Assembly: GCA_016745015.1 (NCBI GenBank)
Contig: JADGDH010000013.1
Span: forward strand, 1 to 33,930
Source of the DNA: Colwellia sp.
Lineage (GTDB): Bacteria; Pseudomonadota; Gammaproteobacteria; Enterobacterales; Alteromonadaceae
Reading direction: 5' to 3'
Length of the DNA stretch: 33,930 bases
Shown: positions 15,707 to 31,418 of the stretch, piece after piece
Numbering within the stretch: the stretch's first letter is position 1
How the letters are laid out: every line of letters begins with the position of its first letter
Translations under genes and position numbers: made by a program
The notes under the pieces: generated by a model
What the model was told of the DNA's origin: nothing
What the model saw: the letters and a program-made list of their open reading frames with translations, nothing else
Databases searched by the model: none

Positions 15707-16894
15707 ATGTTTTCAAAATTAACGCAATTACCAGCAGATCCTATTTTAGGTTTATCTGTAAAATTTAAAGCCGATAGCAATCCAAATAAAATCGATCTTG
15801 GCGCAGGTATTTACAAAGATGAAAATGGTCATACTCCAGTTTTATCTTGTGTAAAAGCAGCTGAAAAATTTCGTTTAGAAAATGAAAGTAGCAAAGCTTA
15901 TATAAGCTCAGCAGGCTCTGCATTATTTAATGAAAAAATGACTTCGCTTATTTTAGGTGATCATAAAGTTATTAGTGAAAACCGTATTCGCACAGTATCA
16001 ACTCCAGGTGGTACGGGCGCTTTACGTACTGCAGGTGAATTTATTAAAGCCTGTACACCAGGCGCTACTATTTGGGTAAGTAACCCAACATGGGCAAACC
16101 ACCAAGGTGTTTTTACCGCTGCTGGTTTGAATGTTAAAACTTATTCATATTATGATTATGAAAATCACAGTTTAGATTTTGAAGGAATGCTTGCAGACTT
16201 AAAACAAGTATCTAAAGATGATGCAGTGCTATTACATGCTTGTTGTCATAACCCAAGTGGTATGGATTTGAGTAAAGAGCAATGGCAGCAAGTAGCCGAC
16301 GTTGCTAAGCAAATTGGTTTTATCCCTGTTGTTGATATGGCTTATCAAGGTTTTGGTCAAGATTTAGATGCCGATGCTTTTGGTCTTAGGTTAATGGCAG
16401 ACACTGTTGAACAAATGATTATTTGTAGTTCATGTTCAAAGAATTTTGGTTTATATCGTGATCGTATTGGAGCTTGTTCTATTATAGGTAAAAGCGCTAT
16501 TGCGGCTGACATTATTAACTCAGTATTACTTTCAGTTGTTCGCGTTAATTACTCTATGCCTCCTGCGCATGGTGCTGCTATTGTAGAAACAATTTTAAAC
16601 TCAGCAGAGTTAACAACTCAGTGGCACGGTGAGTTGAAAGAGATGCGTGATCGTATTAATGGTATGCGTCAGCTATTGGTTGATGAATTAGTGGCTAATG
16701 GTGTAACACGCGACTTTAGCTTTATTACCAAACAAAATGGCATGTTCTCATTTTTAGGCATTGATAAAGCGCAAGTACAGCGTTTACAAGATGAATATGG
16801 TATTTATATTGTTGGATCTAGCCGCATTAGTCTTGCAGGAATTTCACCTGACAATGTTAAGTACTTAACGCAATCTATTGCTAAAGTGCTTTAA
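15707..16894 (+). CDS. AspC/TyrB-type PLP-dependent amino acid aminotransferase
   Basis: A 395-residue class I aminotransferase of the aspartate/aromatic branch. PLP lysine Lys245 lies in SSCSKNFGLYRDRIG, Asn182 in HNPSGMD, Asp210 and Tyr213 in VVDMAYQGFG, and the substrate carboxylate Arg near 375 in SSRISLAG. The N-terminus (LTQLPADPILGL, LGAGIYKDENG) is typical of AspC/TyrB. It interconverts aspartate or aromatic amino acids with their 2-oxo acids; which is preferred is not clear. A good ribosome-binding site (AAGGGGA) precedes the ATG, and a TATAAT lies at 15635-15640. The gene is monocistronic with a terminator. Confidence 0.93.
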   Translation: MFSKLTQLPADPILGLSVKFKADSNPNKIDLGAGIYKDENGHTPVLSCVKAAEKFRLENESSKAYISSAGSALFNEKMTSLILGDHKVISENRIRTVSTPGGTGALRTAGEFIKACTPGATIWVSNPTWANHQGVFTAAGLNVKTYSYYDYENHSLDFEGMLADLKQVSKDDAVLLHACCHNPSGMDLSKEQWQQVADVAKQIGFIPVVDMAYQGFGQDLDADAFGLRLMADTVEQMIICSSCSKNFGLYRDRIGACSIIGKSAIAADIINSVLLSVVRVNYSMPPAHGAAIVETILNSAELTTQWHGELKEMRDRINGMRQLLVDELVANGVTRDFSFITKQNGMFSFLGIDKAQVQRLQDEYGIYIVGSSRISLAGISPDNVKYLTQSIAKVL

Positions 16895-16965: not shown

Positions 16966-16983
16966 ATTTGTATTATTGTTGGT

Positions 16984-17000
16984 TGTGTTAATATGTGTTA
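16984..17000 (+). promoter_or_regulatory. Direct repeat, likely ParD operator
   Basis: TGTGTTA occurs at 16984-16990 and again at 16994-17000, ten bases apart, i.e. on one face of the helix. It lies just upstream of the ParD start. Ribbon-helix-helix antitoxins commonly bind such spaced repeats to repress their own operon. Confidence 0.4.
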
Positions 17001-17032
17001 CAAGTAATTGTAGGTATTTATTAGGGGGCATT

Positions 17033-17284
17033 ATGCCACGCACCACCAGTATTACATTAGGTGAACATCAGCAACTCTTTATTGAGTCTCTCGTAAAAAG
17101 TGGACGCTATACTTCAACAAGTGAAATTATCAGAGATGCTTTGAGAAAAATGGAAGCATCACAAGGCTCCGAATGGTTGTTGTGTCAATTAATTGAAGGT
17201 GAAAAAGGTGAAGCTAAAGCTTGGGATGACGAAGGTTTGCTATCTCATGTAAAAAAGGAAGCTAGAAAGCGTGCCAATCTATAA
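17033..17284 (+). CDS. parD: ParD family type II antitoxin
   Basis: An 83-residue antitoxin. The start is ATG 17033, preceded by the strong ribosome-binding site AGGGGGC; an upstream TTG extension is unlikely. The N-terminal ribbon-helix-helix domain (TSITLGEHQQLFIESLVKSG, then RYTSTSEIIRDALRKME) binds DNA, and the C-terminal tail (about 50-83) should wrap and neutralise ParE. The gene overlaps the toxin gene by 14 bases, which ensures coupled synthesis. It sits between the aminotransferase terminator and a WYL-Wadjet operon, as expected for a module in a defence region. Confidence 0.93.
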   Translation: MPRTTSITLGEHQQLFIESLVKSGRYTSTSEIIRDALRKMEASQGSEWLLCQLIEGEKGEAKAWDDEGLLSHVKKEARKRANL

Positions 17285-17564
17285 GGTTTCACCAGTTGCA
17301 GAAAACGACTTAATTGATATCTATTTGCGTGGCATAAATAAATGGGGAGAAAAGCAAGCGGATGAATATCAAGCTCGATTAGTATCTGCTTTTAATATAT
17401 TGGTCAATAACCCAAATTTAGGCCGTAAAGTAACCATTCGTCCATCCTTAGAACAATATGATGTAAATCCATATATTATTTTTTATCGAAAGTTTAGTTA
17501 TGGAATACGTATTGCTCGTATCCTTTACAAAAATAGAGCAATAGAAAGACATTTAGGAAAATAA
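17271..17564 (+). CDS. parE: ParE/RelE family type II toxin
   Basis: A 97-residue toxin of the ParE branch, starting at GTG 17271 inside the parD 3' end. Family marks are YKVSPVAENDLIDIYLRG at the N-terminus, the central NPNLGRKV region, and the C-terminal strand block (NPYIIFYRK, GIRIARILYKNRAI). ParE members poison DNA gyrase; RelE members cleave mRNA. The sequence looks more like ParE, but the target is inferred from family only. Confidence 0.92.
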   Translation: MPIYKVSPVAENDLIDIYLRGINKWGEKQADEYQARLVSAFNILVNNPNLGRKVTIRPSLEQYDVNPYIIFYRKFSYGIRIARILYKNRAIERHLGK

Positions 17565-17609: not shown

Positions 17610-17676
17610 AAAATAATTGTATGTTGTGTTGTTTACTATTATAGTGGTACTGTTTTTAGTTAACAGAGCCATATTT

Positions 17677-18597
17677 ATGTTACAAGAGATGAACCAAGCG
17701 CAAAAACAACGCTTAGCATTTATTGATTTTAGTTTGCAGTATTTTGGTTATATTACCCGTGCTGATCTTATCTATCGTTTTAAAACAGGGACCGCAGCAG
17801 CGACTCGCGATTTTGCTAGCTATCGTTCTTTAGCTCCTGAAAATTTATTGCTTATTCACCAAAGCAAGCAATATCAACGCACAAATGACTTTCAGCCTTT
17901 ATTTGAGCATGATGCTAATTCAGTACTTACTGGATTATCTCGTGGCTTTGGTGATGGTTTTTCGTTCACCATTGAGCCGAATGAATTATGTTTAGATGCC
18001 ATCAGATTAATTCACCCCAAAACAGACATTATTGCCGTGTTAATGCGTGCTATTGTTCAGAAAAAAGCGTTGAGCTGTCATTATATTTCGTTGTCATCGG
18101 GGGAAAGTCAGCGGATTTTAGTGCCCCATGCGTTAGTAAATAACGGTCATCGCTGGCACGTACGAGCATTTGACTATAAATCAAAACAGTTTAGAGATTT
18201 TGTCTGTACACGTTTTACTCAACTCAATATGCTTGATGATAGTATTTTAAATAAAGCTATTGATAACCATGATGAATTTAAAAGAATAAGTACTAAAAGC
18301 AAAGATAAACAATGGCTACGAATTGTCGACTTAACCTTAATACCTCACCCTAGCATCACTCACAAAAAAGCCATTGAACTTGATTACGATATGAGCAATG
18401 GCTGTCTAAATTTAGAAGTAAGAGCAGCACTGGTTGGTTATTTATTACAGCAATGGCAAGTCGATTCAAGTGAAAAGCACTCATTAACCTCAAGCCAATA
18501 TCAATTAGCTTTATTAAACCCTGCTAGTTTATATGGGGTCAAAAACTTAATGCTTGCGCCCGGTTATGTAATTCAAGAGGAAGAACTTAATGTCTAA
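17677..18597 (+). CDS. WYL-domain transcriptional regulator (BrxR/CapW-like) of the Wadjet operon
   Basis: A regulator of about 306 residues, starting at ATG 17677 or at the second ATG four codons later; an upstream TTG extension is unlikely. The N-terminal part (QKQRLAFIDFSLQYFGYITR) is a winged helix-turn-helix. The middle is a WYL domain in which the signature reads RWHVRAFDYKSKQFRDF, the form found in BrxR/CapW-type regulators. The C-terminal about 80 residues form a WCX-like dimerisation domain. Relatives repress phage-defence operons and respond to a nucleic-acid or nucleotide ligand. The stop overlaps the jetA start by 8 bases, so it is co-transcribed with and probably controls the Wadjet genes. 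Confidence 0.88.
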   Translation: MLQEMNQAQKQRLAFIDFSLQYFGYITRADLIYRFKTGTAAATRDFASYRSLAPENLLLIHQSKQYQRTNDFQPLFEHDANSVLTGLSRGFGDGFSFTIEPNELCLDAIRLIHPKTDIIAVLMRAIVQKKALSCHYISLSSGESQRILVPHALVNNGHRWHVRAFDYKSKQFRDFVCTRFTQLNMLDDSILNKAIDNHDEFKRISTKSKDKQWLRIVDLTLIPHPSITHKKAIELDYDMSNGCLNLEVRAALVGYLLQQWQVDSSEKHSLTSSQYQLALLNPASLYGVKNLMLAPGYVIQEEELNV

Positions 18598-20089
18598 AGA
18601 TCTTAGTTTTGATTATCTAAATCAGTTTAAACAGCACAGTGGTGCATTACGGCTATTATCATCACCACACTTTCCTTTATTAGCGAGTTTTTTCTTTATT
18701 GCCTTTATTAAAAATAATCGTCGCGCTGTACCGTATCAAGAATTGATCGCCTTGCTTGATTATCAACTACAAGATATTCATGATAGTCACGGTGAGTCTT
18801 TATTTCCTAAATCGGCTAAGGCTTACATTGATGATTGGATCAATCAAAAAGTGGGTTATTTGCGTAAATATATGCCACAAAATAGTGATGAACCAGAATG
18901 TGACTTATTACCTGAAGTTGAAAAATCGGTGCGTTGGTTACAAGAGCTGCAAGGGCGTGAATTTGTTGGTACTGAGTCTAGGTTGAAAATGGTTTTAGAT
19001 CTTGTTGCTGATTTAGTGCACGGTACATCACAAGATACCGAAAGTAAATTAATGACGTTGCGTAAACAGCAAGCTGAAATAGCACAGCAAATTAATGCCG
19101 TTGAACAAGGTATGGATGCTGGACTATCAGCAACTCAAATACGTGAAAGAATGTTTTTAGTGTCTGATATGTCTCGACAATTGCTCGGGGAATTTCGACA
19201 AGTAGAAGCTAATTTCAGGCAGCTTGATCGTAATACCCGTAAAACAATTACCTTAGCTGAACATTATAAGGGAAAAGTGTTAGAGCAAGTGCTATCAGGT
19301 CAAGACGTGATTGATGATTCCGATGAAGGTAGTTCGTTTAGTGCCTTTTTTGAATTATTGATGAGCCCGTCAATGCGCGAAAATTTACGGCAAGATCTTA
19401 AACAACTATTGAATTTGGAACAAACCCGTGAATTCGCGAAAAATGATGAGCTACTACGTCATTTATATGCCTACTTACTTGATGCGGGAACTAAGGTGAA
19501 TCAAACCAAGCATGTGATTACTGAACATCTAAGTCGCTATATTCAAGAACAATCACAAGATAATCGTCGTATTATTGAGCTTATTCGGGGCTTTGAGGCA
19601 AAAGCATTAAAAAATCCAGAATTTTTAAAAGTGCAGCATAAAGCATTAACCTTCCCATTAGATGATTTTTGTGCCGATATTTTCCCTGTAATGAGTCGTC
19701 ATTTATTTCAAGCAAAACACAAAGAGAAATTAGACTCATTAGTACAACTAGCCAGTAAAACGCCAAAGGTTGATTTAACCGCTTTATTTGAAATCAGTCA
19801 AGTCAGTGAAGCACAGTTACTGCACAATATTGAAAAAAGTCAGTACCTTAATCAAGGGCAAGCCACGTTAGCACAAATTGTTCAGCAATCACCTATTGAA
19901 CAGGGGCTTGACGAGGTATTAACCTATTTGAAAATTGCCTGCGAGCAACAAATCAAAGCGCATATTGACGATAACCACAAACAGCATATTAGCTGGCAAA
20001 TAACCACCGACGAAACACGACAAATATCTATTCCCCTAATTACTTTTATCAGAGAATCGCTTTCTATAGAGAATACACCAAATGAATGA
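18590..20089 (+). CDS. jetA: Wadjet anti-plasmid system protein JetA (DUF3375)
   Basis: A 499-residue protein of the DUF3375 family, the kleisin-like (MukF/MksF-like) subunit of type I Wadjet. The pattern fits: N-terminal winged-helix region (HFPLLASFFFIAFIKNNRRA), central helical part with long coiled coils (about 160-215, QQAEIAQQINAVEQGMDAG), and a C-terminal winged helix. In the family, JetA bridges the heads of the JetC SMC-like dimer and recruits JetB. Overlaps of 8 bases with both the WYL gene upstream and jetB downstream indicate one transcript with coupled translation. Confidence 0.93.
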   Translation: MSKDLSFDYLNQFKQHSGALRLLSSPHFPLLASFFFIAFIKNNRRAVPYQELIALLDYQLQDIHDSHGESLFPKSAKAYIDDWINQKVGYLRKYMPQNSDEPECDLLPEVEKSVRWLQELQGREFVGTESRLKMVLDLVADLVHGTSQDTESKLMTLRKQQAEIAQQINAVEQGMDAGLSATQIRERMFLVSDMSRQLLGEFRQVEANFRQLDRNTRKTITLAEHYKGKVLEQVLSGQDVIDDSDEGSSFSAFFELLMSPSMRENLRQDLKQLLNLEQTREFAKNDELLRHLYAYLLDAGTKVNQTKHVITEHLSRYIQEQSQDNRRIIELIRGFEAKALKNPEFLKVQHKALTFPLDDFCADIFPVMSRHLFQAKHKEKLDSLVQLASKTPKVDLTALFEISQVSEAQLLHNIEKSQYLNQGQATLAQIVQQSPIEQGLDEVLTYLKIACEQQIKAHIDDNHKQHISWQITTDETRQISIPLITFIRESLSIENTPNE

Positions 20090-20783
20090 ATCTAATAACC
20101 AAACAAAAAATACTGATGACACTATAGAGTCAGCAAATATCGTCACCAGTGAAATTGTAAAAACACAGAAGTCGTCAGTGCAAATCCGCTTGCTAAAGGG
20201 CGCGATATATCGGCAAAAACAAATTGATTTATGGACTTGGCTAGAACGCGATCAGTATCAAATTCGACAATACTTTGCTGAAATTGGTTTATCGTTGATA
20301 TTAGATGAAGCCGAGGGTTATGCTTTTTTACGACAAATGAATTTTGAAGAAATTCAAGAACCGTCAGAACAAAAACAGCAAGCACACACAGCAGAGACAA
20401 GTTTGCCGCGTTTGATTAACAAAAGAGCCTTACCTTTTGCGCAATCATTGTTATTAGTTTTGATCCGAAAACGCTTGGCTGAACATGATAGCGAAGAAAG
20501 TAGTCCGCGTTTAATTATAACTAGAGACGAAATACATCAATGGTTGCAGCCATATTTTAATGCTGAAAATAATGAATTAAAACAACAAAGAGGATTTAAT
20601 ATTCTGCTCAACAAAGTGACCGAACTGGGCTTTATTAAGGCATTGAAGAATTATCCGGATGAATTTGAAATACAAAGGATCATCAAGGCCTTTATTAATG
20701 CTGAACATATTGTTCAACAGCTTGAGTTATTAACCGCCTATGCAATAAGCAAAGCTAGCGAAACTGCAGAACAAGAGGATTAA
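20082..20783 (+). CDS. jetB: Wadjet protein JetB (DUF4194)
   Basis: A 233-residue DUF4194 protein, the KITE/MukE-like (MksE) subunit of Wadjet, made of winged-helix domains. After a hydrophilic N-terminus of about 35 residues come LLKGAIYRQKQIDLWTWLER and a repeated winged-helix fold up to FIKALKNYPDEFEIQRIIKA. In the complex it sits on JetA next to the JetC heads. It overlaps jetA by 8 bases and ends three bases before jetC. Confidence 0.92.
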   Translation: MNESNNQTKNTDDTIESANIVTSEIVKTQKSSVQIRLLKGAIYRQKQIDLWTWLERDQYQIRQYFAEIGLSLILDEAEGYAFLRQMNFEEIQEPSEQKQQAHTAETSLPRLINKRALPFAQSLLLVLIRKRLAEHDSEESSPRLIITRDEIHQWLQPYFNAENNELKQQRGFNILLNKVTELGFIKALKNYPDEFEIQRIIKAFINAEHIVQQLELLTAYAISKASETAEQED

Positions 20784-20786
20784 ATT

Positions 20787-23700
20787 ATGACTGAACATGT
20801 AAATGAAGGATTGTCAGAGTCTATACCAATCATTGCTCCACAATTAGCTGAAAGTACTGCACTGGTTAACACACTAGCGAAAGGGTTTCGTTTAGCCAAG
20901 TTAGAAGTGTTAAATTGGGGAACGTTTGACGGTAAAATATGGCAATTAACGGCACAACAAGATAATTGCTTATTAACCGGCAATATTGGTAGCGGTAAAT
21001 CAACGTTAGTGGATGGTCTAACAACATTATTAGTGCCGCCTCGAAAATTAGCCTTTAATAAAGCGGCTGGAGCCAGTGAAAATGAACGTTCGTTAGAATC
21101 TTATTTTCATGGTTTTTATACCTCGCAGCAAGATGACAATGGTAAAGCCAGATCTGTCGGTTTGCGCCAAGACAAACATTACAGTGTGTTGTTAGCTCAA
21201 TTTCATGCCAGTACGCTAAATGAAACTATTACCATTGCGCAAGTTTTTTGGTTAAAACCTGGCGAGCATAAAGTTAAACGACTTTACATTGTTGCTCGAG
21301 ATGCTTTGAGCATTACCAATGATTTTTCAGGCTTTGGTGCACAAATTTTACAATTACGTAAAAAATTGAGAAAAAATGAACAGGTGGAATTATTTGACAG
21401 CTTTGCGCCTTATGGTCAAAGTTTAAGTAAATTAATGGGCTTAGGCACAGACGGTAAAGCCTTAGAGTTATTCAACCAAACCATTTCAATGAAATCGGTG
21501 GGTTCAGTAACTGATTTTGTTCGTCAAAATATGTTAGAAAAGCCCAATGTAGAAGTGCAACTTGCTGAGCTTGAGCGTAACTATCAAGATTTAAAACGTT
21601 TACATGATACTGTAGTGGCTGCCCGTCATAAAGTTGATTTATTACAACCCGTGGTAAAACAAGGCGAGCAAGCGTTATCGGCACAAGAGGATAAAATACA
21701 ATATTTATCAGCACGCGATTGTATTGATTCTTTTATCGCTAAAAAATCGGTAGCACTTTATCAACAACGTTTAGATAAACGTCAACAAGAGCTTGACCGT
21801 TTACAGATAAAGCTTAGTGAACTTGAAAGTATTAAATCGTCTATTGAACGTAAAAAAACACAATTACAGGAAGAGATAAATAGTAATGGTGGTTTACGTA
21901 TTCAACAGCTAGCTGATGAAATTAATCGTTTAGTCGCAGAGCGGAAACAAAAGCAACAGATTTGTGATATTTACCAAAATTTATTAACAGACTTGAGCTT
22001 GCCAGAAAAATTAGATGCTGATGTGTTTTTAACAAATATTGATACCGCAAAAAATAAGGTTGAAAGCCAAACAGATCTTATTTTACAAGCTGATGACAAT
22101 ATTTTTTCTACGCGAAAATCACTTGGTGAGTTACAACAAAATCAAGTGGAAATTAATGATGAACTGAACGCGTTAAAACAGCGAAAGTCGAATATTCCAC
22201 TGCAACAATTAAAGTTACGTCAATGCTTATGTGATGCATTAAAATTGACCGAAGAACAATTACCCTTTGTTGGTGAATTACTGCAAGTAAAAACTAAACA
22301 AAGTCATTGGCAAGGCGCTATAGAGCGAGTATTACATAACTTTGCTTTATCATTAGTCGTGCCAGACAAACTTTACGCACAAGTATCTGAACTCGTTAAC
22401 AATACCCATTTAGGTGGTCGTTTAGTTTATTATCGAGTAAAAACAGAGCAATACCGGTTTATTAGAGATGATAATGACGTAACTCCATATATATTAACGG
22501 AAAAAATTGAAATAAAGCCTGATAGCGAACATTACACTTGGCTTAAAAATGAATTAAGTCAGCGCTTTAATTATCAATGTTGTGATGATTTAGCTGATTT
22601 TCGCCGCAGTGAAAAAGCTATAACAGCTAAAGGTCAAATGAAATCAGGCAGATCTCGTCATGAAAAAGATGATCGCCATGATATTAATGATAAACGTCGC
22701 TTTGTTTTAGGTTGGAGTAACCAAGCAAAAATAGCGCTATTAAGTGCTCAAGTTACAGGCCTACAAAACCAAGAACAGCAACAGCAGCAACAAATAACTG
22801 CCTTGAAACTTGATAAAACCCGGCAAGAAAATATTCGTATTAGCGCGAATAACTTGGCTAATTTTAATTTTTCATTTGAACAAATAAACTGGCCGTCAGT
22901 GAGTGGTTTTATTACTGAATTACAAAATGAAAAACAACAACTTGAACAAAGCTCTGATGTTTTAAAGCAGTTACAACAACAGCTTGGTAGTGCTGAGCAA
23001 GAATATACATTAGCTACCGAACAATTCAATAAAACCAATCAAGATGTTGGAAAAAAATCAGCTGAAATTGATAATGATCAACAAGCCTTAACTGACAACA
23101 AACAAATTTGGCAAATGTTATCTGAACATGAACAAACACAATACTTTGTTCTTATAGAGCAGTTTGTTCAGCAGTATTTTAGTGATAAGGCATTTAACTT
23201 ACGAGAAATAACGACCCGTAAACAAGAATTGAATAAAAAGTTAAATGACAAAGTACAACATTTACAAGAAAAAATAGGTAAAAAAGAGCGTGCTATGGTA
23301 AATGCTATGGCTGATTTCGCTCATGAATTTCCAAATGATGTTACCGAATTAGATAAAAGCCTTGCTTCTTTGTCTGAATATAAAACCATGCTTGATAAAT
23401 TAGTAGCTGAAGATTTACCAAAATATGAACATAAATTTAAAGAAATGCTTAATAGAGACACAATACGAGCTATGGCGATATTTAGAAGCCAGTTAGAAAA
23501 ATTCAATGAAGATATTGATGCGCGTATTGCCTTAATCAACCAAGCATTGCGCGGTTTAGATTATCAATCGGGCACCTATATAGAAGTTGATGCGGTTAAT
23601 TCTCTTGATGTCGACGTTCGTGATTTTAAAGAACGTTTAAAGCAATGTGTTGAATATGCAACCGATGACAGTTTGTATTCAGAAGAAAAATTTATTCGAG

Positions 23701-24287
23701 TAAAAGATTTAATTGAACAAATGCGTAATGACCCGAAATGGACCCAAAAGGTGGTAGACGTGCGTTACTGGCACTTGTTTAATGTAGTTGAGCGTTATCG
23801 AGAAGATGACAGTGAAAAAGAATGCTACTCCGATTCAGGTGGCAAATCAGGAGGTCAAAAAGAAAAATTAGCCTACTCAATTTTAGCGGCAGCAATATTA
23901 TTACAATATGGCTTAATTGATGAACAATATCACATGAACCGTAATGCCAAACGCCGTTTTAATTTAGTGGTGATTGATGAGGCATTTGCCAGAGGTTCAA
24001 AAGACAGTACGCGATTTGGCTTAGAGTTATTTAAAAAACTAGGCTTGCAATTGTTATTGGTTACACCCTTGCAAAAACTTGATGTTATTGAACATTATGT
24101 TCAACAGGTTCATTTTGTTGATCAAAGAAATAATTGCTCAATGTTATTAAATATGACCATTGAGCAATACCGTAAAAAAATGCGTCAACATAAACAAAAT
24201 TCAGCGACGTTATTAACTAATGAAACAGCTAATAACGAGTTAGCTAAAACAAACAGCCAATATCAAAATATGATTGAAGAGTTGTAA
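20787..24287 (+). CDS. jetC: Wadjet SMC-like ATPase JetC
   Basis: The 1166-residue SMC-type (MukB/MksB-like) motor of type I Wadjet, which extrudes DNA loops and senses small circular DNA. Walker A is GNIGSGKST (65-73). Long coiled-coil arms run from about 270 to 940, with a central hinge near 520-590. The C-terminal head carries the ABC signature SGGQ (1021-1024) and Walker B NLVVIDEAF (1059-1067), where Asp1064 and Glu1065 are intact. A short Gln-rich run (NQEQQQQQQ) lies in the second arm. All ATPase motifs look functional. The stop TAA shares a base with the jetD ATG. Confidence 0.95.
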   Translation: MTEHVNEGLSESIPIIAPQLAESTALVNTLAKGFRLAKLEVLNWGTFDGKIWQLTAQQDNCLLTGNIGSGKSTLVDGLTTLLVPPRKLAFNKAAGASENERSLESYFHGFYTSQQDDNGKARSVGLRQDKHYSVLLAQFHASTLNETITIAQVFWLKPGEHKVKRLYIVARDALSITNDFSGFGAQILQLRKKLRKNEQVELFDSFAPYGQSLSKLMGLGTDGKALELFNQTISMKSVGSVTDFVRQNMLEKPNVEVQLAELERNYQDLKRLHDTVVAARHKVDLLQPVVKQGEQALSAQEDKIQYLSARDCIDSFIAKKSVALYQQRLDKRQQELDRLQIKLSELESIKSSIERKKTQLQEEINSNGGLRIQQLADEINRLVAERKQKQQICDIYQNLLTDLSLPEKLDADVFLTNIDTAKNKVESQTDLILQADDNIFSTRKSLGELQQNQVEINDELNALKQRKSNIPLQQLKLRQCLCDALKLTEEQLPFVGELLQVKTKQSHWQGAIERVLHNFALSLVVPDKLYAQVSELVNNTHLGGRLVYYRVKTEQYRFIRDDNDVTPYILTEKIEIKPDSEHYTWLKNELSQRFNYQCCDDLADFRRSEKAITAKGQMKSGRSRHEKDDRHDINDKRRFVLGWSNQAKIALLSAQVTGLQNQEQQQQQQITALKLDKTRQENIRISANNLANFNFSFEQINWPSVSGFITELQNEKQQLEQSSDVLKQLQQQLGSAEQEYTLATEQFNKTNQDVGKKSAEIDNDQQALTDNKQIWQMLSEHEQTQYFVLIEQFVQQYFSDKAFNLREITTRKQELNKKLNDKVQHLQEKIGKKERAMVNAMADFAHEFPNDVTELDKSLASLSEYKTMLDKLVAEDLPKYEHKFKEMLNRDTIRAMAIFRSQLEKFNEDIDARIALINQALRGLDYQSGTYIEVDAVNSLDVDVRDFKERLKQCVEYATDDSLYSEEKFIRVKDLIEQMRNDPKWTQKVVDVRYWHLFNVVERYREDDSEKECYSDSGGKSGGQKEKLAYSILAAAILLQYGLIDEQYHMNRNAKRRFNLVVIDEAFARGSKDSTRFGLELFKKLGLQLLLVTPLQKLDVIEHYVQQVHFVDQRNNCSMLLNMTIEQYRKKMRQHKQNSATLLTNETANNELAKTNSQYQNMIEEL

Positions 24288-25510
24288 TGAAAGCACCAGC
24301 ACAACTTAAACAGCAACTAAAGAAAAAATGGCAAAGTCACTTTTTTCATAAAGCATGGCTTGAGCAATATTTACTGCAAAGTGGTAAGGAAGAAGTATCG
24401 ACTCATACGCTTTTTCCTTATTCACTAACCTTGAGTAAAATAACCGACAAACAAATGTTGCATCAATTTAATGAAGTAACTGATTGGATTGAACAATTAA
24501 CCCTTTTTCAAGTGAGAAATAGTCAATACTTTAATTTAACTTGGCAAGCGTTGAATTTTCGTAGTTTAGGCAAGCAAAAAATCCCTACCGCCATCACCTT
24601 TGCTAATATTGAGTGTTTGGCACGGTTTTTAGGGTATTGGCAGCAATGGCAAAATTTTATAGCAAAGGTGTTAGTAACCAATACACAATTTCCACTGTTA
24701 CTGCCTTGGTTGCAACACAAACCAAATGAGCTGTTGCAACATGTAGATGTTTGGTCGAAGATCTTATTAGTTTGTCATCATTTTGTTGCTAACCCTAAGC
24801 CTGATTGCTATTTGCGTGAGTTAAGTGTCAAAGGAATAGACACTAAATTTATTGGTTTACACAAAGGTATATTGAAAAAATTACTTGATCAATTATTATC
24901 CAGTGATGTTATTAATGCCGATATTAGTAAACTAACCGATCATGGTTTTGAAAAACGTTTCGGCTTAAAATTTCCTCAGCCAAGAATTCGATTTCGGGTA
25001 TTAGATCAAAGCATGATTGCCGATTTAGGTGGCTTTTCTGATCTAGAAGTCACTGTTGATGAATTTGCTAAGCTAAACCTTTTATGTGATAAGGTTTACA
25101 TCACTGAAAATAAAACTAATGGTTTAGCTTTTCCTCAAGTGAACAATGCTATTGTTATTTTTGGTTTAGGTTATGGTATTAATGCATTAAAAAATATAGC
25201 CTGGTTAAAACAATGTCGGCTTTATTATTGGGGAGATATTGATACCCATGGTTTTGCCATTCTTGCTCAGGCACGAAGTTATTTTCCTAAAATACACTCT
25301 TTTTTGATGGATGAAGCCACCTTACTTGCCTGCAAAGAATTTTGGGGTCAAGAGCCAGCAGATAAACGCCACCCAAGCAAGCATTTAGTTCAATTGACTA
25401 AAGCAGAACAAACTCTTTATCAACAGCTTAAAAATGAACATTTCCAAGAACGGCTTAGGCTAGAGCAAGAACGTATTCCCTTTGAATATTGGCAACAGAG
25501 GCTGTATTAA
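24287..25510 (+). CDS. jetD: Wadjet nuclease JetD (DUF3322/DUF2220, Toprim)
   Basis: The 407-residue DNA-cleaving subunit of Wadjet. The N-terminal DUF3322 domain spans about 1-190. The C-terminal DUF2220 domain is a topoisomerase VI A/Toprim-like nuclease with YITENKTNGLAFP (Glu274) and LYYWGDIDTHGFAIL (Asp317, Asp319, His321), the metal-binding acidic residues of Toprim. JetD cuts plasmid DNA after the JetABC complex has reeled it in. All catalytic residues look present, so the four-gene system appears intact. The rraA-like gene is convergent 46 bases downstream, and no terminator is visible between them. Confidence 0.94.
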   Translation: MKAPAQLKQQLKKKWQSHFFHKAWLEQYLLQSGKEEVSTHTLFPYSLTLSKITDKQMLHQFNEVTDWIEQLTLFQVRNSQYFNLTWQALNFRSLGKQKIPTAITFANIECLARFLGYWQQWQNFIAKVLVTNTQFPLLLPWLQHKPNELLQHVDVWSKILLVCHHFVANPKPDCYLRELSVKGIDTKFIGLHKGILKKLLDQLLSSDVINADISKLTDHGFEKRFGLKFPQPRIRFRVLDQSMIADLGGFSDLEVTVDEFAKLNLLCDKVYITENKTNGLAFPQVNNAIVIFGLGYGINALKNIAWLKQCRLYYWGDIDTHGFAILAQARSYFPKIHSFLMDEATLLACKEFWGQEPADKRHPSKHLVQLTKAEQTLYQQLKNEHFQERLRLEQERIPFEYWQQRLY

Positions 25511-25555
25511 GCTACTGGTATTAAACATATCTTCATGTATAAACTAATAAAATAT

Positions 25556-26035
25556 CTAAACAATTTTATCGCTAGTTACAATTACACCATCAGTATCAGC
25601 ATAAAGATAATCACCGTGGTTAATTTCAATACCACCAAATGATAAGCTAATATTTCTTTCACCTGACGTTACTGGAATATATTTTCTAGAACAAGTTCCT
25701 AGTGCATATAAGGCAACAGGAATTTCTGTTATTTGAAAAGTATCTCTGATGTAGCCATTGACTACGATACCAGCATAATTATTTTGATGAGCAAATTTCA
25801 TCAAGTTTTCACCTACTACGGCAAAGTATTCTTGGTCGACATCAACCACAACAACTTTTCCTGAGCCATCTTCATCTCTGAGAAGTTTTATTAGATCTGA
25901 ATTGTTTTTGTCTAATTTGATCGTAACTATTTCGCCTTGGCATTTGCTCGCGCCACCATAATTTTTATAGCCTGAGCCTAATACAAATACCTTATTACTG
26001 TGATCATCACAAATATCGGCAGTAAAAAATGTCAT
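25556..26035 (-). CDS. RraA family protein, possibly an aldolase/decarboxylase
   Basis: A 159-residue RraA-fold protein (LRDEDGSGKVVVVDVD, GIVVNGYIRD, SFGGIEINHGDYLYADTDGV). E. coli RraA inhibits RNase E and lacks the catalytic Asp. Here the motif is GYIRD with Arg97 and Asp98, the pair needed by 4-hydroxy-4-methyl-2-oxoglutarate/4-carboxy-4-hydroxy-2-oxoadipate aldolases, which also decarboxylate oxaloacetate. This favours an enzyme over an RNase E regulator, although the length fits both. It is divergent from the glutamate mutase operon with 128 bases between starts, so the two may share regulation. Its role in that pathway is inference. Confidence 0.8.
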   Translation of the reverse strand: MTFFTADICDDHSNKVFVLGSGYKNYGGASKCQGEIVTIKLDKNNSDLIKLLRDEDGSGKVVVVDVDQEYFAVVGENLMKFAHQNNYAGIVVNGYIRDTFQITEIPVALYALGTCSRKYIPVTSGERNISLSFGGIEINHGDYLYADTDGVIVTSDKIV

Positions 26036-26103
26036 AAATTAGTCCTGTTCTTTTTTATATAGGGTATAAGCCAGTATTCTAGCATTTTAGGAGTGTTTTA
26101 ATA

Positions 26104-26125
26104 GAATATTTGATACCATATATTC
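26104..26125 (+). promoter_or_regulatory. Inverted repeat between rraA-like gene and the glutamate mutase operon
   Basis: GAATAT (26104-26109) and ATATTC (26120-26125) form an inverted repeat with a 10-base spacer, in the 128-base divergent region about 40 bases before the mutase start. It could be an operator serving both directions. The AT-rich context makes chance likely as well. Confidence 0.25.
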
Positions 26126-26163
26126 AATAAAGTGAATAGTTATACATTGAGCGCAAAAATTAT

Positions 26164-26604
26164 ATGAAAGTAGTAACAGGCGTAGTGGGTAACGATATCC
26201 ATGTGGTCGCTAATCGATTAATTGAACTCTCTTTAAATGCGAGAGGATATGAAGTATTTAACCTTGGGGTTAATACTTATTTAGAAGAGTTTTTTGATGC
26301 AGCAGTGGAAACGGGAGCTGATGTTTTAATGATATCTTCTCTCAACGGTGAAGCAGAAGGTTGGAGCCGAGAAGTTAAGCTACTGAAAGCAAAATATAAA
26401 AATTTAGATGATATTATCATGATGATTGGTGGCAATTTAGTTGTTGGCACCGGCAATGCGGAAGATATCGTGCCAAGGTACAAAAATTATGGCTTTGATA
26501 TAGTGTGTCATCAGGTCGATTTAAATACGGGTTTGGATATGTTAGAAACTTTACTTAAAGAAAGAAGCATTCAAAGCAAAGAAACAAAAGAGAGTAATAA
26601 ATAA
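26164..26604 (+). CDS. glmS: Glutamate mutase small (sigma, B12-binding) subunit
   Basis: A 146-residue cobalamin-binding subunit of adenosylcobalamin-dependent glutamate (methylaspartate) mutase; glmS here is not the glucosamine-phosphate synthase gene. It has the base-off/His-on binding motif GNDIHVV with Asp11 and cobalt ligand His13, SSLNG (58-62) and MIGGNLVVG (87-95), all matching clostridial GlmS. One deviation: the Gly of D-x-H-x-x-G is Ala16. With the large subunit it interconverts L-glutamate and 3-methylaspartate. The TAA shares a base with the large-subunit ATG. No strong ribosome-binding site precedes this ATG. Confidence 0.92.
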   Translation: MKVVTGVVGNDIHVVANRLIELSLNARGYEVFNLGVNTYLEEFFDAAVETGADVLMISSLNGEAEGWSREVKLLKAKYKNLDDIIMMIGGNLVVGTGNAEDIVPRYKNYGFDIVCHQVDLNTGLDMLETLLKERSIQSKETKESNK

Positions 26605-27968
26605 TGAGTTTGCTGCAAGAAGAAAGAGAAATAATTCTTAGCAATGAGTATGTTGACACCTTTGACTTTGCCGAAGTGGCTGAGTTTGTTAAAAATGCTA
26701 GCAAAGATTTGTTTATATCTCATCATTTTAAGAAAAAAAGTAAAATGCTAGTGCAACCACGTGGCGGTTTTCCTACCTATAAAAAGCAATTTGCCCTTTA
26801 TGAATTTTTTGTTGATGCCAATGTTGATGTATTGCCGTTAACTATAGATTCTAATACCCGATTAAATGATTATGCTACATCAAAAAAAATGCTCCGCTTG
26901 AGTGAAGAAAATGATGTCGACATGCTTAATGGTTATCCTTTGGTGAATCATGGCTATCGTACAACACGCAAGATGATCACGCATTTTAATAAACCAGTCA
27001 GTTTACGCCATGGTACGCCTGATGCCAGATTATTAATTGAAACAGCAATAGCTTCGGGGATTTTTGAAATTGAAGGTGGCCCCATCACTTATCTTCTGCC
27101 TTATTCAAAAAACTTTCCGCTTGATAAAGCCTTTTTATATTGGAAGTATGTAGAAAGAGTGTGCGCTAACTATTCTAAACTAAATGAACCCATTAACAGA
27201 GAATCGTTTGGTCCATTGACGGCAACGTTAGTACCACCATCAATTACCATTGTTATTCAGCTACTAGAAATGCTGCTGTCATTAGAAGAAGGCGTAAAAT
27301 CATTTTCTGTATCGTTTGCTCAGCAAGGCTCTATGAATCAAGATATTGTCACGGGTGCAGTGCTTAAAAAGCTAGCAAAGTACTACGCAGCACAAATTAA
27401 TTGTAGCGACGCTTCTATACATTTGGTATATCACCAATGGATGGGCGCTTTTCCAATGAACAAAGATTACGCTGAGCAGTTAATTAATATGTCTACAGTG
27501 ATAGCGTCAATGGTTGGCGCAGATAAAATCATCACTAAAACCAGAGAAGAAGCGTCGGGTATTCCAACCAAAGAGGCTAATGCTAAAACTGTATCTAATA
27601 CGCAATATACGTTAGGTATTCTAAATGGTTTACCTAATGTGGTTGATGAAGAAGAAGAGGAAATGTTAACCCTACAGGTTAACGCAATAATGGAAGCCGT
27701 GTTTAATGACCCTGCCGATACTTTATGGCGAAAAGTTTTTAATTCTATCAAAAACGGTATTATCGATGTGCCTTTTTCTCCGCATATTATTAACCACAAT
27801 AATATGATCACCATTAGAGATGCCAAGAAAAATATCAGAATTATTAAAAGAGGGAATGTGCCCATTCCAGATCGTTGTTATGCCTACGACAAAGCGCAAT
27901 GTGATTTAACTAAAGATACGACTAGTATCGTCAATGACATTATTCATGATATAGGAATTATGCAATGA
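26604..27968 (+). CDS. glmE: Glutamate mutase large (epsilon, catalytic) subunit
   Basis: A 454-residue TIM-barrel subunit of glutamate mutase. Compared with Clostridium cochlearium GlmE from memory, the arginine claw that holds glutamate is intact: Arg53 (QPRGG), Arg86 (TIDSNTRLNDY) and Arg135 (LRHGTPD), as are Glu157 (EIEGGP), Tyr163 and Tyr167 (TYLLPYSKN). Further matches are FGPLTATLVPPS and YHQWMGAFP. This makes true glutamate mutase activity likely. The protein is about 30 residues shorter than the clostridial one, mainly at the C-terminus. It overlaps the next gene by four bases (ATGA). Confidence 0.94.
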   Translation: MSLLQEEREIILSNEYVDTFDFAEVAEFVKNASKDLFISHHFKKKSKMLVQPRGGFPTYKKQFALYEFFVDANVDVLPLTIDSNTRLNDYATSKKMLRLSEENDVDMLNGYPLVNHGYRTTRKMITHFNKPVSLRHGTPDARLLIETAIASGIFEIEGGPITYLLPYSKNFPLDKAFLYWKYVERVCANYSKLNEPINRESFGPLTATLVPPSITIVIQLLEMLLSLEEGVKSFSVSFAQQGSMNQDIVTGAVLKKLAKYYAAQINCSDASIHLVYHQWMGAFPMNKDYAEQLINMSTVIASMVGADKIITKTREEASGIPTKEANAKTVSNTQYTLGILNGLPNVVDEEEEEMLTLQVNAIMEAVFNDPADTLWRKVFNSIKNGIIDVPFSPHIINHNNMITIRDAKKNIRIIKRGNVPIPDRCYAYDKAQCDLTKDTTSIVNDIIHDIGIMQ

Positions 27969-29218
27969 GCGATTTAGACGTAGAACAAAGCAATGAAAAG
28001 CTACTTATTGATGTAGGTAGCACCTATTTTAAGCTCAGTAGAACAGGGCATATTGAACAGCACCTTAGGGATTTTAATAAAGATATTTTAGATGACCTAA
28101 TGTATAAATGCGGTAAAACAGTCGAGGGTTTTGCTAAAGATGATGTTTACATTTGTTCATCAGCTAATGGCGGGCTAACAACCCTAATTATCGGTATTAC
28201 TAATACCTTCTCACTAAAATATGCGACCAATATTGCCTTTAACTCAGGTATTAATATCATTGATACCGTGCTTTATCAGAATATTGAAGATTACTCACTA
28301 CCAAGCGATCTTATTGACGTTGTAATTATTGTTGGTGGAATCAATTCACACGGTAATATTTTTTCTGCTAATTTATATAACTATTTAGCTCAATTACGTT
28401 ATTCAAATATTGTTTTTGTTGGTAATGAAATCGATGTACCAGCAATAAAAGAAAACATTGAAAATATTGATATATTGCCAAATATTATTGACGACAGGCT
28501 TCATATTGTTGAAGAGCATTTAAGAGAATATTTAACTAACCTTTATCAAAAAGATATTGAAGGTAAAGAAGACATTAAGCACCTATACGATATTACCTCG
28601 AATCAAATATTCCCTACGCCATACATTGTGAATAAAACATTACCGTTAATTAATGCCAAATTTTCAGTAGTAAACCCTTTTATTTTGCTTGATATTGGTG
28701 GCGCAACGACGGATATTCATTATTCAAAAGATTTAGTTGATGACAACTTAGTGACTGAAAATGAATACGATAGATTAGTATTTAAAAAGCTTGGTGTGTA
28801 TAAGTCAAAGCAATCGTTAATTTTTGCCGCCAAAAATAATGAATTTGTTTATGAGCTACTCATGCATTTAAAAGTAACAGAAAATATTTTTGAAGAGCAA
28901 AGTGAAAAATCGACCAAAATATTGATGCAACTGGCTATCTTTTTGGTGTTATGTAAAATTTCACATTATAGAAAAGCCTATATAAATTTAAAGCTACTTG
29001 CTATTAACTCTATTGTGCTAACAGGTGGTATTACTAAGGTATTAACGAGCGACGAAATAGAAGATATCATTTCGTTTTTCTATAAAAAAATTCTTAATTC
29101 AGAACATAACCCTATGACTGTTCTTGATAGTAATTATGATATATGGACACTGGGAACTGTTAATACTGATGTCGATGCTGATACTTATATCAGTACGAAA
29201 GAAGAAAGAGGAAAATAA
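27965..29218 (+). CDS. glmL: GlmL/MutL-type reactivating ATPase for glutamate mutase
   Basis: A 417-residue ASKHA-fold ATPase, not the mismatch-repair MutL. Phosphate motif 1 is LLIDVGSTYFKL (13-24), the family motif SSANGGLT is at 65-72, phosphate motif 2 is LLDIGGATTDIHYS (241-254) with Asp243, and an adenosine-type motif is IVLTGGITKVL near 350-360. Members are found next to B12 mutases and are thought to reactivate the enzyme by exchanging damaged cobalamin. It is shorter than clostridial GlmL (about 460). The order S-E-L differs from the clostridial S-L-E order. The ligase gene follows after two bases. Confidence 0.88.
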   Translation: MSDLDVEQSNEKLLIDVGSTYFKLSRTGHIEQHLRDFNKDILDDLMYKCGKTVEGFAKDDVYICSSANGGLTTLIIGITNTFSLKYATNIAFNSGINIIDTVLYQNIEDYSLPSDLIDVVIIVGGINSHGNIFSANLYNYLAQLRYSNIVFVGNEIDVPAIKENIENIDILPNIIDDRLHIVEEHLREYLTNLYQKDIEGKEDIKHLYDITSNQIFPTPYIVNKTLPLINAKFSVVNPFILLDIGGATTDIHYSKDLVDDNLVTENEYDRLVFKKLGVYKSKQSLIFAAKNNEFVYELLMHLKVTENIFEEQSEKSTKILMQLAIFLVLCKISHYRKAYINLKLLAINSIVLTGGITKVLTSDEIEDIISFFYKKILNSEHNPMTVLDSNYDIWTLGTVNTDVDADTYISTKEERGK

Positions 29219-29220
29219 TT

Positions 29221-30795
29221 ATGTCAATAAACTGTATAAGAACACTGCTTGAAGGTGCTGTGCAGGCTCATAGCGATAAAGCAGCCATAGTTTATAACGA
29301 AAAAAGTATGACTTACGCTGAGCTTTTTATCAAAGTAAATCAAGTCGCTTTCTACTTAAACGAATTAGATCTACCAAAAGATTCACGCGTTGGTATTTAT
29401 TCTAAAAAGGGTATTGAGCAAGTTATTGCTGTGTTAGCTATTTTGTCTACCGACTACATATTAGTACCACTAACTACTTTGCTAAAATCAGAGCAGATTG
29501 AATATATAATTAATGATTGTGACATTAAGTGCATTATCACCGATAAGCTTAAGCTTGAAAGTATTGAAGAGATTAATTTTGGCGGTCATATTATTTCATA
29601 TGAAACTGCCAGCAAAGGCATAGCGTCATTTGAAGAAATATTCAAATACTATAACAAGCCTTATACATGTGATATCAATGGTCACAGTAATGCGGTTATT
29701 ACCTATTCTTTTGGTGTGTCTGGTACACCAAAAGGCATTGTTATTTCACACCGAAATTTAATTGATTCTGCTCGTGTTGTTTCTCAGTATTTACAGTTAG
29801 AACAAAATGATGTGATTTCAGGCTTACTTATTTTTAATCTTGATTATGGCTTAAATCAAATTTTTTGTACCTTGTATAAAAGGGCAACATTAGCGCTGCA
29901 CCGATTTATTTTACCAGAAGATTTCTTTAACCATTTAATTAACGACAAAATTACTGTTTTGCCACTAATGCCAGTTAATATTTCACAAATGTTTGATGAA
30001 GATATGCACCGAATTCCTAACGCTGAGCTTTTTTCTGGTGTTAAAACTATTACCTCTTCAGGTGGCAATGTTACCGCTAAAATGATCAAAGATTGTAAAA
30101 ACACCTTCCAACAGGCTAATTTTTATTCAATGCATGGTTTAACTGAAGCATTTCGTTCAACTTATCTTGATCCCTCACAAGTTCAAATTAGGCCAGACTC
30201 TATCGGTAAAGCTATTCCTGATGTTGAACTCTATGTGATTAATGAAGAAGGCAGAGAGTGTGGAGTTCGTGAAGTAGGCGAATTGATCCATCGAGGTGGC
30301 TATATTTATAGAGGTTTTTGGAATGCCCCTGAACAAAACTCAGAACGGTTCAAGTCTGTACAAATATTAAAAGATGTTATTAACTTAGAAGGTCAATTAA
30401 CTGACGAACTGGTTGTCGCTACGGGTGACTATGTATACAAAGATGAAGAAGGTTACTTTTACTTCGTTTCTAGGCAAGATGACATGATTAAAACTCGCGG
30501 CTTTAGGGTTTCGCCTATTGAAATTGAATCTGTGGTGGAAAAAAATATCCCACAAATAGAGAAATGTGCTGTTTTCGGACTAGACAATGAGCTTATCGAA
30601 GAAGAAATTGTCATGGTTTACTCAGCAAAAAGTGAAATAACAGAAAAAGAGATATTGTTTGAGCTGAAAAAACACCTAGCTTCTTACATGATACCAAGTA
30701 GAGTTGTTTACAAAAAATCACTACCATTAGTGCAAAGTGATAAAAATAAAATTAATAAAGAAGCGCTGAAGAAAGCATTATCATCAGTACGTTGA
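29221..30795 (+). CDS. AMP-forming acyl/aminoacyl ligase of the glutamate mutase operon
   Basis: A 524-residue stand-alone adenylating enzyme of the ANL superfamily. The phosphate loop is SFGVSGTPKG (163-172), unusual in place of TSGSTGxPKG. The A5 motif is MHGLTEAFRSTYLDP (304-318), with TGDYVY (401-406), Arg418 and the A10 lysine Lys510 (DKNKINKEAL). NLDYGLNQ (206-213) and RPDSIGKAIP resemble the ligase group annotated as exosortase A system-associated. There is no fused carrier or other domain. It would activate a carboxylic acid as an adenylate and transfer it to CoA, a carrier protein or an amine. Its place as the last gene of the mutase operon suggests 3-methylaspartate, glutamate or a derived acid as substrate; this is inference. 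Confidence 0.88.
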   Translation: MSINCIRTLLEGAVQAHSDKAAIVYNEKSMTYAELFIKVNQVAFYLNELDLPKDSRVGIYSKKGIEQVIAVLAILSTDYILVPLTTLLKSEQIEYIINDCDIKCIITDKLKLESIEEINFGGHIISYETASKGIASFEEIFKYYNKPYTCDINGHSNAVITYSFGVSGTPKGIVISHRNLIDSARVVSQYLQLEQNDVISGLLIFNLDYGLNQIFCTLYKRATLALHRFILPEDFFNHLINDKITVLPLMPVNISQMFDEDMHRIPNAELFSGVKTITSSGGNVTAKMIKDCKNTFQQANFYSMHGLTEAFRSTYLDPSQVQIRPDSIGKAIPDVELYVINEEGRECGVREVGELIHRGGYIYRGFWNAPEQNSERFKSVQILKDVINLEGQLTDELVVATGDYVYKDEEGYFYFVSRQDDMIKTRGFRVSPIEIESVVEKNIPQIEKCAVFGLDNELIEEEIVMVYSAKSEITEKEILFELKKHLASYMIPSRVVYKKSLPLVQSDKNKINKEALKKALSSVR

Positions 30796-30857
30796 CAAGA
30801 ACATTTATCTAGCTAGTTAACCTAGCTAGTCAATCTAACTAATTCATATAAGCAACT

Positions 30858-30886
30858 AAAAAACCTAACGTTATGTTAGGTTTTTT
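30858..30886 (+). terminator. Rho-independent terminator after the glutamate mutase-ligase operon
   Basis: A perfect 12-bp stem AAAAAACCTAAC (30858-30869) with GTTAGGTTTTTT (30875-30886) and a 5-base loop. It is likely bidirectional, and would also serve the minus-strand EF-hand gene. Confidence 0.9.
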
Positions 30887-31006
30887 GTTCTGCTTTGGTA
30901 TGACATTACACATACCAATAAATCATAAAGAAGTGACAAACCGTAACAGCTAATACGAACAAGAGAAGCCTAAAAAAGTAGGCATGTTCAAAGGGAAGTA
31001 TTTAAC

Positions 31007-31225
31007 TTATAAAGCTAATTCAATAACCATTTCTTTTAATTCGTCTTTAGAAATAGAATTACTATGGTTTTTGTCAAAACGATTAAAAATAGACTCACAC
31101 ATACTAATGCCTTTGTCTTGCAATAACACGTCAATGAGCTCAACAAATTCTGTACGGCTAATTACACCGTCTTTATCTTCATCAAACACTTCAAACAACT
31201 CATCTACCCACTGATTCAATTCCAT
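31007..31225 (-). CDS. Small EF-hand calcium-binding protein
   Basis: A 72-residue protein that is almost only an EF-hand pair. Loop 1 is DEDKDGVISRTE, a canonical 12-residue loop with Asp, Asp, Asp, Gly6, Ile8 and Glu12. Loop 2 is DKNHSNSISKDE, which keeps Asp1, Asn3, Ser5, Ile8 and Glu12 but has Asn instead of Gly6. There is no signal peptide, so it should be cytosolic and calmodulin-like. A good ribosome-binding site (AAGGA) lies 9 bases before the start. It has no partner gene on its strand. Confidence 0.85.
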   Translation of the reverse strand: MELNQWVDELFEVFDEDKDGVISRTEFVELIDVLLQDKGISMCESIFNRFDKNHSNSISKDELKEMVIELAL

Positions 31226-31418
31226 GAGGGTTCCTTAGGTAATTAGAGAAAAATCAATATTTAAACTTTATCGTTTATTAAAGCGTTTGTGAATAAATTT
31301 TTATAAATATTTACAAAGTGATGGATTCTAAATAATAGTGAAATCGAATAGAATACTTTAACTTTGTACTAGCTTTGTAATAACACTGTTAAAAATAAAA
31401 ACAATATGGAAAGACAAA

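Follow-up and report, generated by a model that had tools for sequence, protein, structure and literature searches.

Glutamate mutase is a textbook enzyme of anaerobic fermenters and is known from a few antibiotic clusters; what, then, does it do in marine carriers that are largely aerobic or microaerobic? The question is raised by a contig of Colwellia sp. (JADGDH010000013.1, positions 1-33,930, assembly GCA_016745015.1), the whole stretch of which, 33,930 nucleotides, is called the window here. In it, the genes for the two mutase subunits, S and E, are followed by the gene for a putative GlmL-type reactivase (L) and by that for a protein of the ANL fold. Together with a divergent RraA-fold gene, and often a transaminase gene, they recur in other bacteria as a cassette whose use of 3-methylaspartate is probably a new one. 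The relevant features of the window are the following.

15707..16894, plus strand: AspC-like transaminase paralog linked to the cassette, named AAT2 (PRK09257, 573 bits)
25556..26035, minus strand: cassette-linked RraA-fold paralog with the motif E-x20-R-D (PF03737; class II pyruvate aldolase / oxaloacetate decarboxylase fold)
26164..26604, plus strand: glutamate mutase S (B12-binding) subunit, motif D-I-H-V-V-A (NF002612 methylaspartate mutase S, 151.5 bits against a cut-off of 110; TIGR01501, 91 bits, below the cut-off of 136)
26604..27968, plus strand: glutamate mutase E (catalytic) subunit, with the equivalents of the 6h9e residues kept (PF06368, E=4.5e-114; TIGR01503, 367 bits, slightly below the cut-off of 390)
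27965..29218, plus strand: divergent putative reactivase of the GlmL/MutL type (PF13941 MutL, 91.5 bits; NCBIfam GlmL equivalog, 76 bits, far below the cut-off of 475)
29221..30795, plus strand: ANL-fold protein related to TIGR03098, with an altered P-loop (YSFG) and a freely varying A10 lysine site (K510 in the window)
30857..30887, plus strand: terminator-like hairpin of 14 pairs, then a T-rich tail

A mutase unit larger than its operon

An original prediction, made from the window alone, described four coupled genes closed by a terminator that make 3-methylaspartate with neither an ammonia-lyase nor a carrier protein. The open reading frames, the family matches and the hairpin bear out the gene arrangement: S and E overlap by 1 base, E and L by 4 bases, and a gap of 2 bases separates L from the ANL gene. 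The predicted product is also the most likely one. Excerpts of PMC9545868 list for glutamate mutase an arginine claw (R66, R100 and R149), plus E171 and Y177. The window E protein keeps equivalents of these residues and of Y181 (6h9e numbering), and short motifs around its substrate-contact residues recur in 80 or 81 of the 81 loci introduced below. Because the claw, E171 and Y177 are kept, the conversion of L-glutamate to (2S,3S)-3-methylaspartate by S and E is the safest reading of the cassette, and a mutase with this activity is very probable. The classical B12-binding motif is D-x-H-x-x-G, ending in Gly; S retains its D and H but not the full motif, with Ala in place of Gly (DIHVVA) in all 73 relatives with an S gene in the picked gene set. 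The motifs around IDvGSTYFK and DiGGATTD are conserved in an alignment of 76 L proteins.

Both subunits are homologous over most of their length to those of the Clostridium enzyme (GlmS/GlmE, PDB 1cb7 and 6h9e), with which they share the equivalents of the arginine claw, Glu171 and Tyr177. They differ from it in the Ala-ending S motif, in the length of E (454 versus 483 residues) and in having no ammonia-lyase partner. The cassette E is a separate subfamily, 27-38% identical to E proteins encoded on plasmids; the search of PLSDB that gave these sequences returned 30 records with an E relative, all below 60% identity, and no close copy.

Searching GTDB genomes with an alignment of E proteins yielded 219 relatives; the best 80 were retained, giving 81 loci with the window. 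By record title, the carriers among these best 80 include Colwellia, Thalassotalea, Oceanospirillaceae, Halieaceae-type bacteria, Vibrio, Granulosicoccus and betaproteobacteria, as well as Sulfurimonas, Arcobacter relatives and one Rhodothermales-labelled bin. The proposed search for conserved neighbourhoods thus found the order S-E-L-ANL unbroken in all 80 relatives, as far as the contigs reach: S and E are present in 81/81 loci, L in 80/81 and ANL in 76/81, the absent L and ANL genes all being at contig ends, and ANL lies directly after GlmL in 76/76 loci where it was found. The four-gene operon is, nevertheless, only part of the conserved unit, which also includes the RraA gene (73/81 loci, always upstream on the opposite strand and within 600 bases of S in 65) and frequently, as in many Gammaproteobacteria, the transaminase gene (36/81, upstream on the same strand and within 2.6 kb in 32). 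The divergent RraA-fold gene clusters upstream in the window, in six loci of the same genus (L012, L013, L055-L058) and in two of other families (L050, L051). Its eight absences comprise two contig ends (L073, L090), one broken frame with the pieces present (L062) and five that are real within about 9 kb. Besides RraA and the transaminase no neighbour recurs widely around the 81 loci, the next cluster being a cytochrome-c-like gene in 10/81, all in Campylobacterota.

Several single loci deserve mention. The Colwellia maritima assembly of L054 and L062 has several split genes, including the cassette RraA gene, which suggests sequencing errors. In a Colwellia bin, L063 (same contig as L058) has a short ANL frame of 361 residues, 284 of them aligned, on a contig that continues, the sole such case among 76. 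In four loci of Arcobacter relatives (L103, L109, L129, L138), RraA lies near a gene of about 700 codons whose product resembles, by eye, OvoA-type 5-histidylcysteine sulfoxide synthase.

The known partners of 3-methylaspartate metabolism were also looked for, in an assembly of 293 contigs and 94% completeness, so that absences from the genome are not absolute. For methylaspartate ammonia-lyase, the genome gave only a 22-bit sub-threshold match to PF07476 on another contig (PF05034 was not searched for), and inspection by eye of the 45 commonest gene clusters in the neighbourhood of the 81 loci showed none. PP-binding domains had two matches in the whole genome, both in small free-standing proteins on other contigs, of which the first, unlinked to the operon, was judged AcpP-like from its fab neighbours. 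The second is a free acyl carrier protein of 85 residues (L144, G000:C200, 6073-9819), found beside KAS-like, Lnt-like N-acyltransferase and exosortase-like genes (by eye). A nonribosomal peptide or polyketide product was rejected, these two PP-binding matches being the only ones and neither of them linked to the operon. The two genome matches to TIGR03099, considered as VinO-like decarboxylases, are far below the cut-off and resemble LysA genes. Neither a carrier protein nor a VinO-like pyridoxal phosphate decarboxylase recurs beside the cassette in the 81 loci. The predicted lack of a lyase and of a linked carrier thus stands; the lyase elsewhere in the genome that would have contradicted the prediction did not turn up.

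Since the substrate residues are kept, no ammonia-lyase was found and the unit recurs in 80 relatives, the comparison supports a distinct 3-methylaspartate module. It consists of a distinct mutase subfamily in a compact, conserved marine cassette whose partners match neither known use of glutamate mutase. Searches of the open PMC literature listed no title or abstract on this cassette.

The RraA-fold gene and AAT2 are, judged from their distribution, dedicated paralogs of the cassette. The genus sample comprised 39 genomes, own genome included, of which nine carry the cassette ANL gene (the own copy plus eight at 80-93% identity, one of them partial). RraA-like genes are present in all 39, and a copy linked to the operon in 9/9 operon genomes (in two pieces in G764, cut by the contig end in G787). 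At least three RraA-type matches were found in 8/9 operon genomes versus 2/30 operon-less ones, the latter having three matches in two, two in 22 and one in six. The cassette paralog is 32% identical to the two other RraA copies of its own genome. AAT2 was found in 8/9 operon genomes, with 84-92% identity between the window copy and the seven others, and is accompanied by housekeeping-type copies at 68-74%; in G764 the housekeeping-type matches are at 58% and contain stop codons.

The cassette is rare, its type of E having been found in 4/369 sampled genomes of the class, 3/394 of the order and 2/397 of the phylum. Sequence comparison indicates that it has passed horizontally between marine Gammaproteobacteria and Campylobacterota, because the Campylobacterota E proteins are far closer to the window than GlyA is and because their loci form one nested clade. 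E is 81-93% identical between Campylobacterota and the window (median 89; 22 loci) and ANL 70-86% (21 loci), compared with 57-59% for GlyA of the window genome in five Campylobacterota carriers that gave a usable match (L073, L103, L104, L109, L133; no match in L124 and a fragment in L138), a yardstick that is a single gene and is set against an E that may be unusually constrained, with L, S and ANL pointing in the same direction. In a midpoint-rooted tree of S, E, L and ANL from 75 loci, 21 Campylobacterota form one clade nested beside Oceanospirillaceae, and two Vibrio loci group with Reinekea and with Neptuniibacter, respectively. The Rhodothermales-labelled bin (L128) has its cassette among Granulosicoccus-type loci in this tree and is probably misbinned.

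The adenylation site of the fourth protein

The last gene of the operon matches PF00501 (1e-58) and PF13193. Its best NCBIfam model is TIGR03098, the exosortase-A-associated acyl-CoA ligase, with which it shares the motifs DYGLNQ and GLTEAFRS; the score of 426.6 bits, however, is below the cut-off of 592.35, and neither an exosortase nor a TIGR03099 partner recurs beside the cassette. Six non-cassette relatives from the genus tested against NCBIfam score 701-762, all over the TIGR03098 cut-off. The site was compared in an alignment of 75 full-length cassette proteins and 20 such genus relatives, which are 34-38% identical to the window protein.

The cassette proteins have the ANL fold and its A4, A5, A7 and A8 motifs. 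Invariant in all 75 are D208-Y209 (A4), T308-E309 (A5), R312, D403 (A7), R418, D420 and G427 (A8) and D507, and the A8 lysine K424 is present in 74/75, the remaining residue being undetermined. The A3 motif, in contrast, is lost: the P-loop reads SFG[LMVI][TS]GxP[KN]G versus the standard (T/S)SG(S/T)TGxPKG, with Phe164 at the Ser position in 75/75. The A10 site holds K in 25 proteins, Q in 28, R in 15, L in 4, S in 2 and I in 1, whereas the 20 non-cassette relatives all keep both the A10 lysine and the P-loop serines. On the tree, which was built including the ANL protein, the A10 site has undergone at least 24 changes and is among the 38 most variable of 524 sites, while F164, D208, Y209, E309, R312, D403, R418, D420, G427 and D507 are unchanged. 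A lysine shifted along the loop is conceivable, as K513 is kept in 70/75 and K or R occurs at 508 in 64/75. The alignment at 510 could be out of register if the loop has been remodelled; the downstream [IV]-[ND]-K anchors and the 16/75 proteins with Lys at neither 508 nor 510 argue against this, K513 in 70/75 counting the other way. An AlphaFold model of the window protein was poor (mean pLDDT 62.5).

According to excerpts of PMC6122825, class I adenylate-forming enzymes keep the A10 lysine without exception and have 94% Ser at the P-loop site, its mapping to F164 having been made here; PMC8388817 gives the A10 lysine as the key catalytic residue. Against this degree of conservation, an unconserved A10 lysine and a Ser to Phe change in the P-loop make standard adenylation unlikely, and the cassette ANL family is, in all likelihood, not a standard adenylating ligase. 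The original prediction took the fourth protein for a standard AMP-forming enzyme that would activate what the operon makes. With the A10 lysine in 25/75 and the P-loop altered in 75/75, compared with 20/20 intact controls, this claim is not supported for the family; the window copy retains Lys510, so it cannot be called dead from its sequence and an activity of its own is possible. The wider proposal of a new 3-methylaspartate pathway keeps its distinct module, but its adenylation step is doubtful. As for the ligand, an amino acid with an extra carboxylate is plausible because the Asp for the amino group (D208) and R312 are invariant. D208-Y209 and R312 are, on the other hand, equally invariant in the 20 non-cassette relatives and are for that reason not specific for 3-methylaspartate. 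The family offers a natural test of an adenylation-fold enzyme whose adenylation lysine has left selection.

Possible fates of 3-methylaspartate

Because an ammonia-lyase, a linked carrier and a dedicated decarboxylase were not found, the available chemistry is transamination by AAT2 and the aldol/decarboxylation chemistry of the RraA fold. The 3-methylaspartate formed by S and E would be turned by AAT2 into 3-methyloxaloacetate, which the RraA-fold enzyme, whose relatives decarboxylate oxaloacetate, would convert to 2-oxobutyrate; the cassette would then hold the genes of a glutamate-mutase route to 2-oxobutyrate and isoleucine. To our knowledge, no genes have been assigned to this route. The ANL protein would probably bind the amino diacid in its Asp208/Tyr209/Arg312 pocket, without standard ATP adenylation, and may act on an adenylate or thioester made beforehand, or as a partner of the mutase. 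The cassette RraA paralog shares its fold family and R-D motif with the RraA and HMG/CHA aldolases (PDB 3c8o, 1q5x, 3noj), R97 and D98 being present in 68/68 aligned proteins. Excerpts of PMC5065237 report an oxaloacetate decarboxylase activity of HMG/CHA aldolases that depends on the Arg of this motif, and those of PMC7476758 list a glutamate mutase pathway to 2-ketobutyrate.

A number of observations weigh against this route. The metal/substrate motif of the RraA fold is D-x20-R-D, and the cassette paralog has E instead of D at its first position in 67/68. Five Campylobacterota loci (L124, L133, L135, L136, L137) have no RraA gene within about 9 kb, and in eight others it lies 0.7-9.2 kb away. 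None of the 22 Campylobacterota loci, 18 of which have at least 3 kb upstream, has the transaminase nearby; of the 50 non-Campylobacterota loci with that much upstream sequence, 34 have it and 16 lack it. Within the genus, AAT2 was not seen in one operon genome (G787) and occurs at 91-92% identity without the cassette in 2/30 operon-less ones; RraA-type matches number only two in another operon genome (G357) and three in two operon-less ones. The operon-less G784 retains the gene order upstream of the cassette in the window, with AAT2 present and then no cassette. A threonine deaminase C-terminal domain was over the cut-off in 12/17 carriers tested, own genome included; the five Campylobacterota carriers tested gave no match over it. 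Finally, the route leaves ANL, the most constant extra gene, without a role, and the window copy of ANL still has its A10 lysine. The transaminase/RraA route to 2-oxobutyrate is a tentative possibility at most, because of the threonine deaminase already encoded, the Glu in place of Asp in the RraA motif and the missing role for ANL. The same caution applies to the picture of a laterally transferred cassette that would both make and consume 3-methylaspartate, with this route and a non-canonical ANL partner. The most far-reaching form of this reading is unlikely. By it, the cassette would hold the genes behind the glutamate-mutase 2-oxobutyrate/isoleucine route, or behind a similar new use of 3-methylaspartate, and its ANL protein would have given up ATP adenylation for an indispensable role as partner of the B12 radical mutase, the whole having passed horizontally between Gammaproteobacteria and Campylobacterota of the sea.

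Doubtful as well is the explanation closest to the original prediction, by which ANL would adenylate 3-methylaspartate and transfer it to coenzyme A, to an unlinked carrier or to an amine, in the manner of VinN in the vicenistatin pathway, so that a small specialised metabolite results. Its precedent is proven, since excerpts of PMC11284099 describe the mutase VinH/VinI with the stand-alone adenylation enzyme VinN, and the cassette shares this combination as well as the A4 Asp followed by an aromatic residue. D208 with its aromatic neighbour resembles VinN D230/F231, which bind 3-methylaspartate (excerpts of PMC11253843), an equivalence read from an LgrA alignment and not from structure; R312 lies in the loop that carries VinN K330/R331. 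The invariance of D208, Y209 and R312, the two free-standing PP-binding proteins of the genome and the retained K510 of the window copy also speak for it. Yet the A10 lysine is absent in 50/75, at a site free to evolve, the P-loop Ser is replaced by Phe throughout, and the pocket residues are no less constant in the non-cassette controls. The VinN pathway, moreover, differs from the cassette in having a linked carrier, a decarboxylase and a polyketide synthase; no carrier or VinO-like decarboxylase recurs near the cassette, and the TIGR03099 matches of the genome are LysA-like.

It is unlikely, though in keeping with the position of its gene next after GlmL, that ANL is a non-adenylating accessory of the mutase, which with its adenosine/ribose-binding residues and A8 lysine would help GlmL to build, shield or reactivate the B12 enzyme, or would catalyse the thioester-conformation half-reaction only. 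D403 (A7), R418, D420 and K424 (A8) and G427 are kept while A10 and A3 have changed, which counts in its favour. The invariant pocket, on the contrary, suggests a small-molecule ligand, and the lysine may have shifted (K513, or K or R at 508). We know of no ANL-type accessory of a B12 mutase, which counts against this explanation too. That the cassette is left over from glutamate fermentation by the mesaconate (methylaspartate) pathway, with which it has the mutase and GlmL families in common, is largely refuted and very improbable, given its strong conservation with no decay and the lack of an ammonia-lyase over the cut-off in the genome or, by eye, among the 45 commonest neighbouring gene clusters.

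Both end products, a small specialised metabolite and 2-oxobutyrate, are unproven proposals. As the cassette has only 5-6 genes and is present in cultured isolates such as Neptuniibacter caesariensis MED92 and Amphritea balenae, its product should be findable by deletion and metabolomics.

Neighbouring genes in the window

No cobalamin riboswitch or other RNA was detected in 25400-31300, where the one sub-threshold match lies at the terminator, and an intergenic word count in 43 of the 81 loci returned promoter-like words only. The transaminase of the window is 9.3 kb from S because the genes of a defence system sit between them. This is a complete Wadjet-type set (17617-25510, plus strand), located between the cassette transaminase and the RraA gene and composed of a WYL-domain gene, JetA (DUF3375), JetB (DUF4194), JetC (SbcC-like ATPase) and JetD; it is preceded by a ParDE pair at 16976-17564, and its JetC is unmatched in the other 80 loci. 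Just past the window, positions 838-1128 of L015 (G000:C275:33000-40459) hold a run of N with an identical protein start at 838 and 1037, probably an assembly gap.

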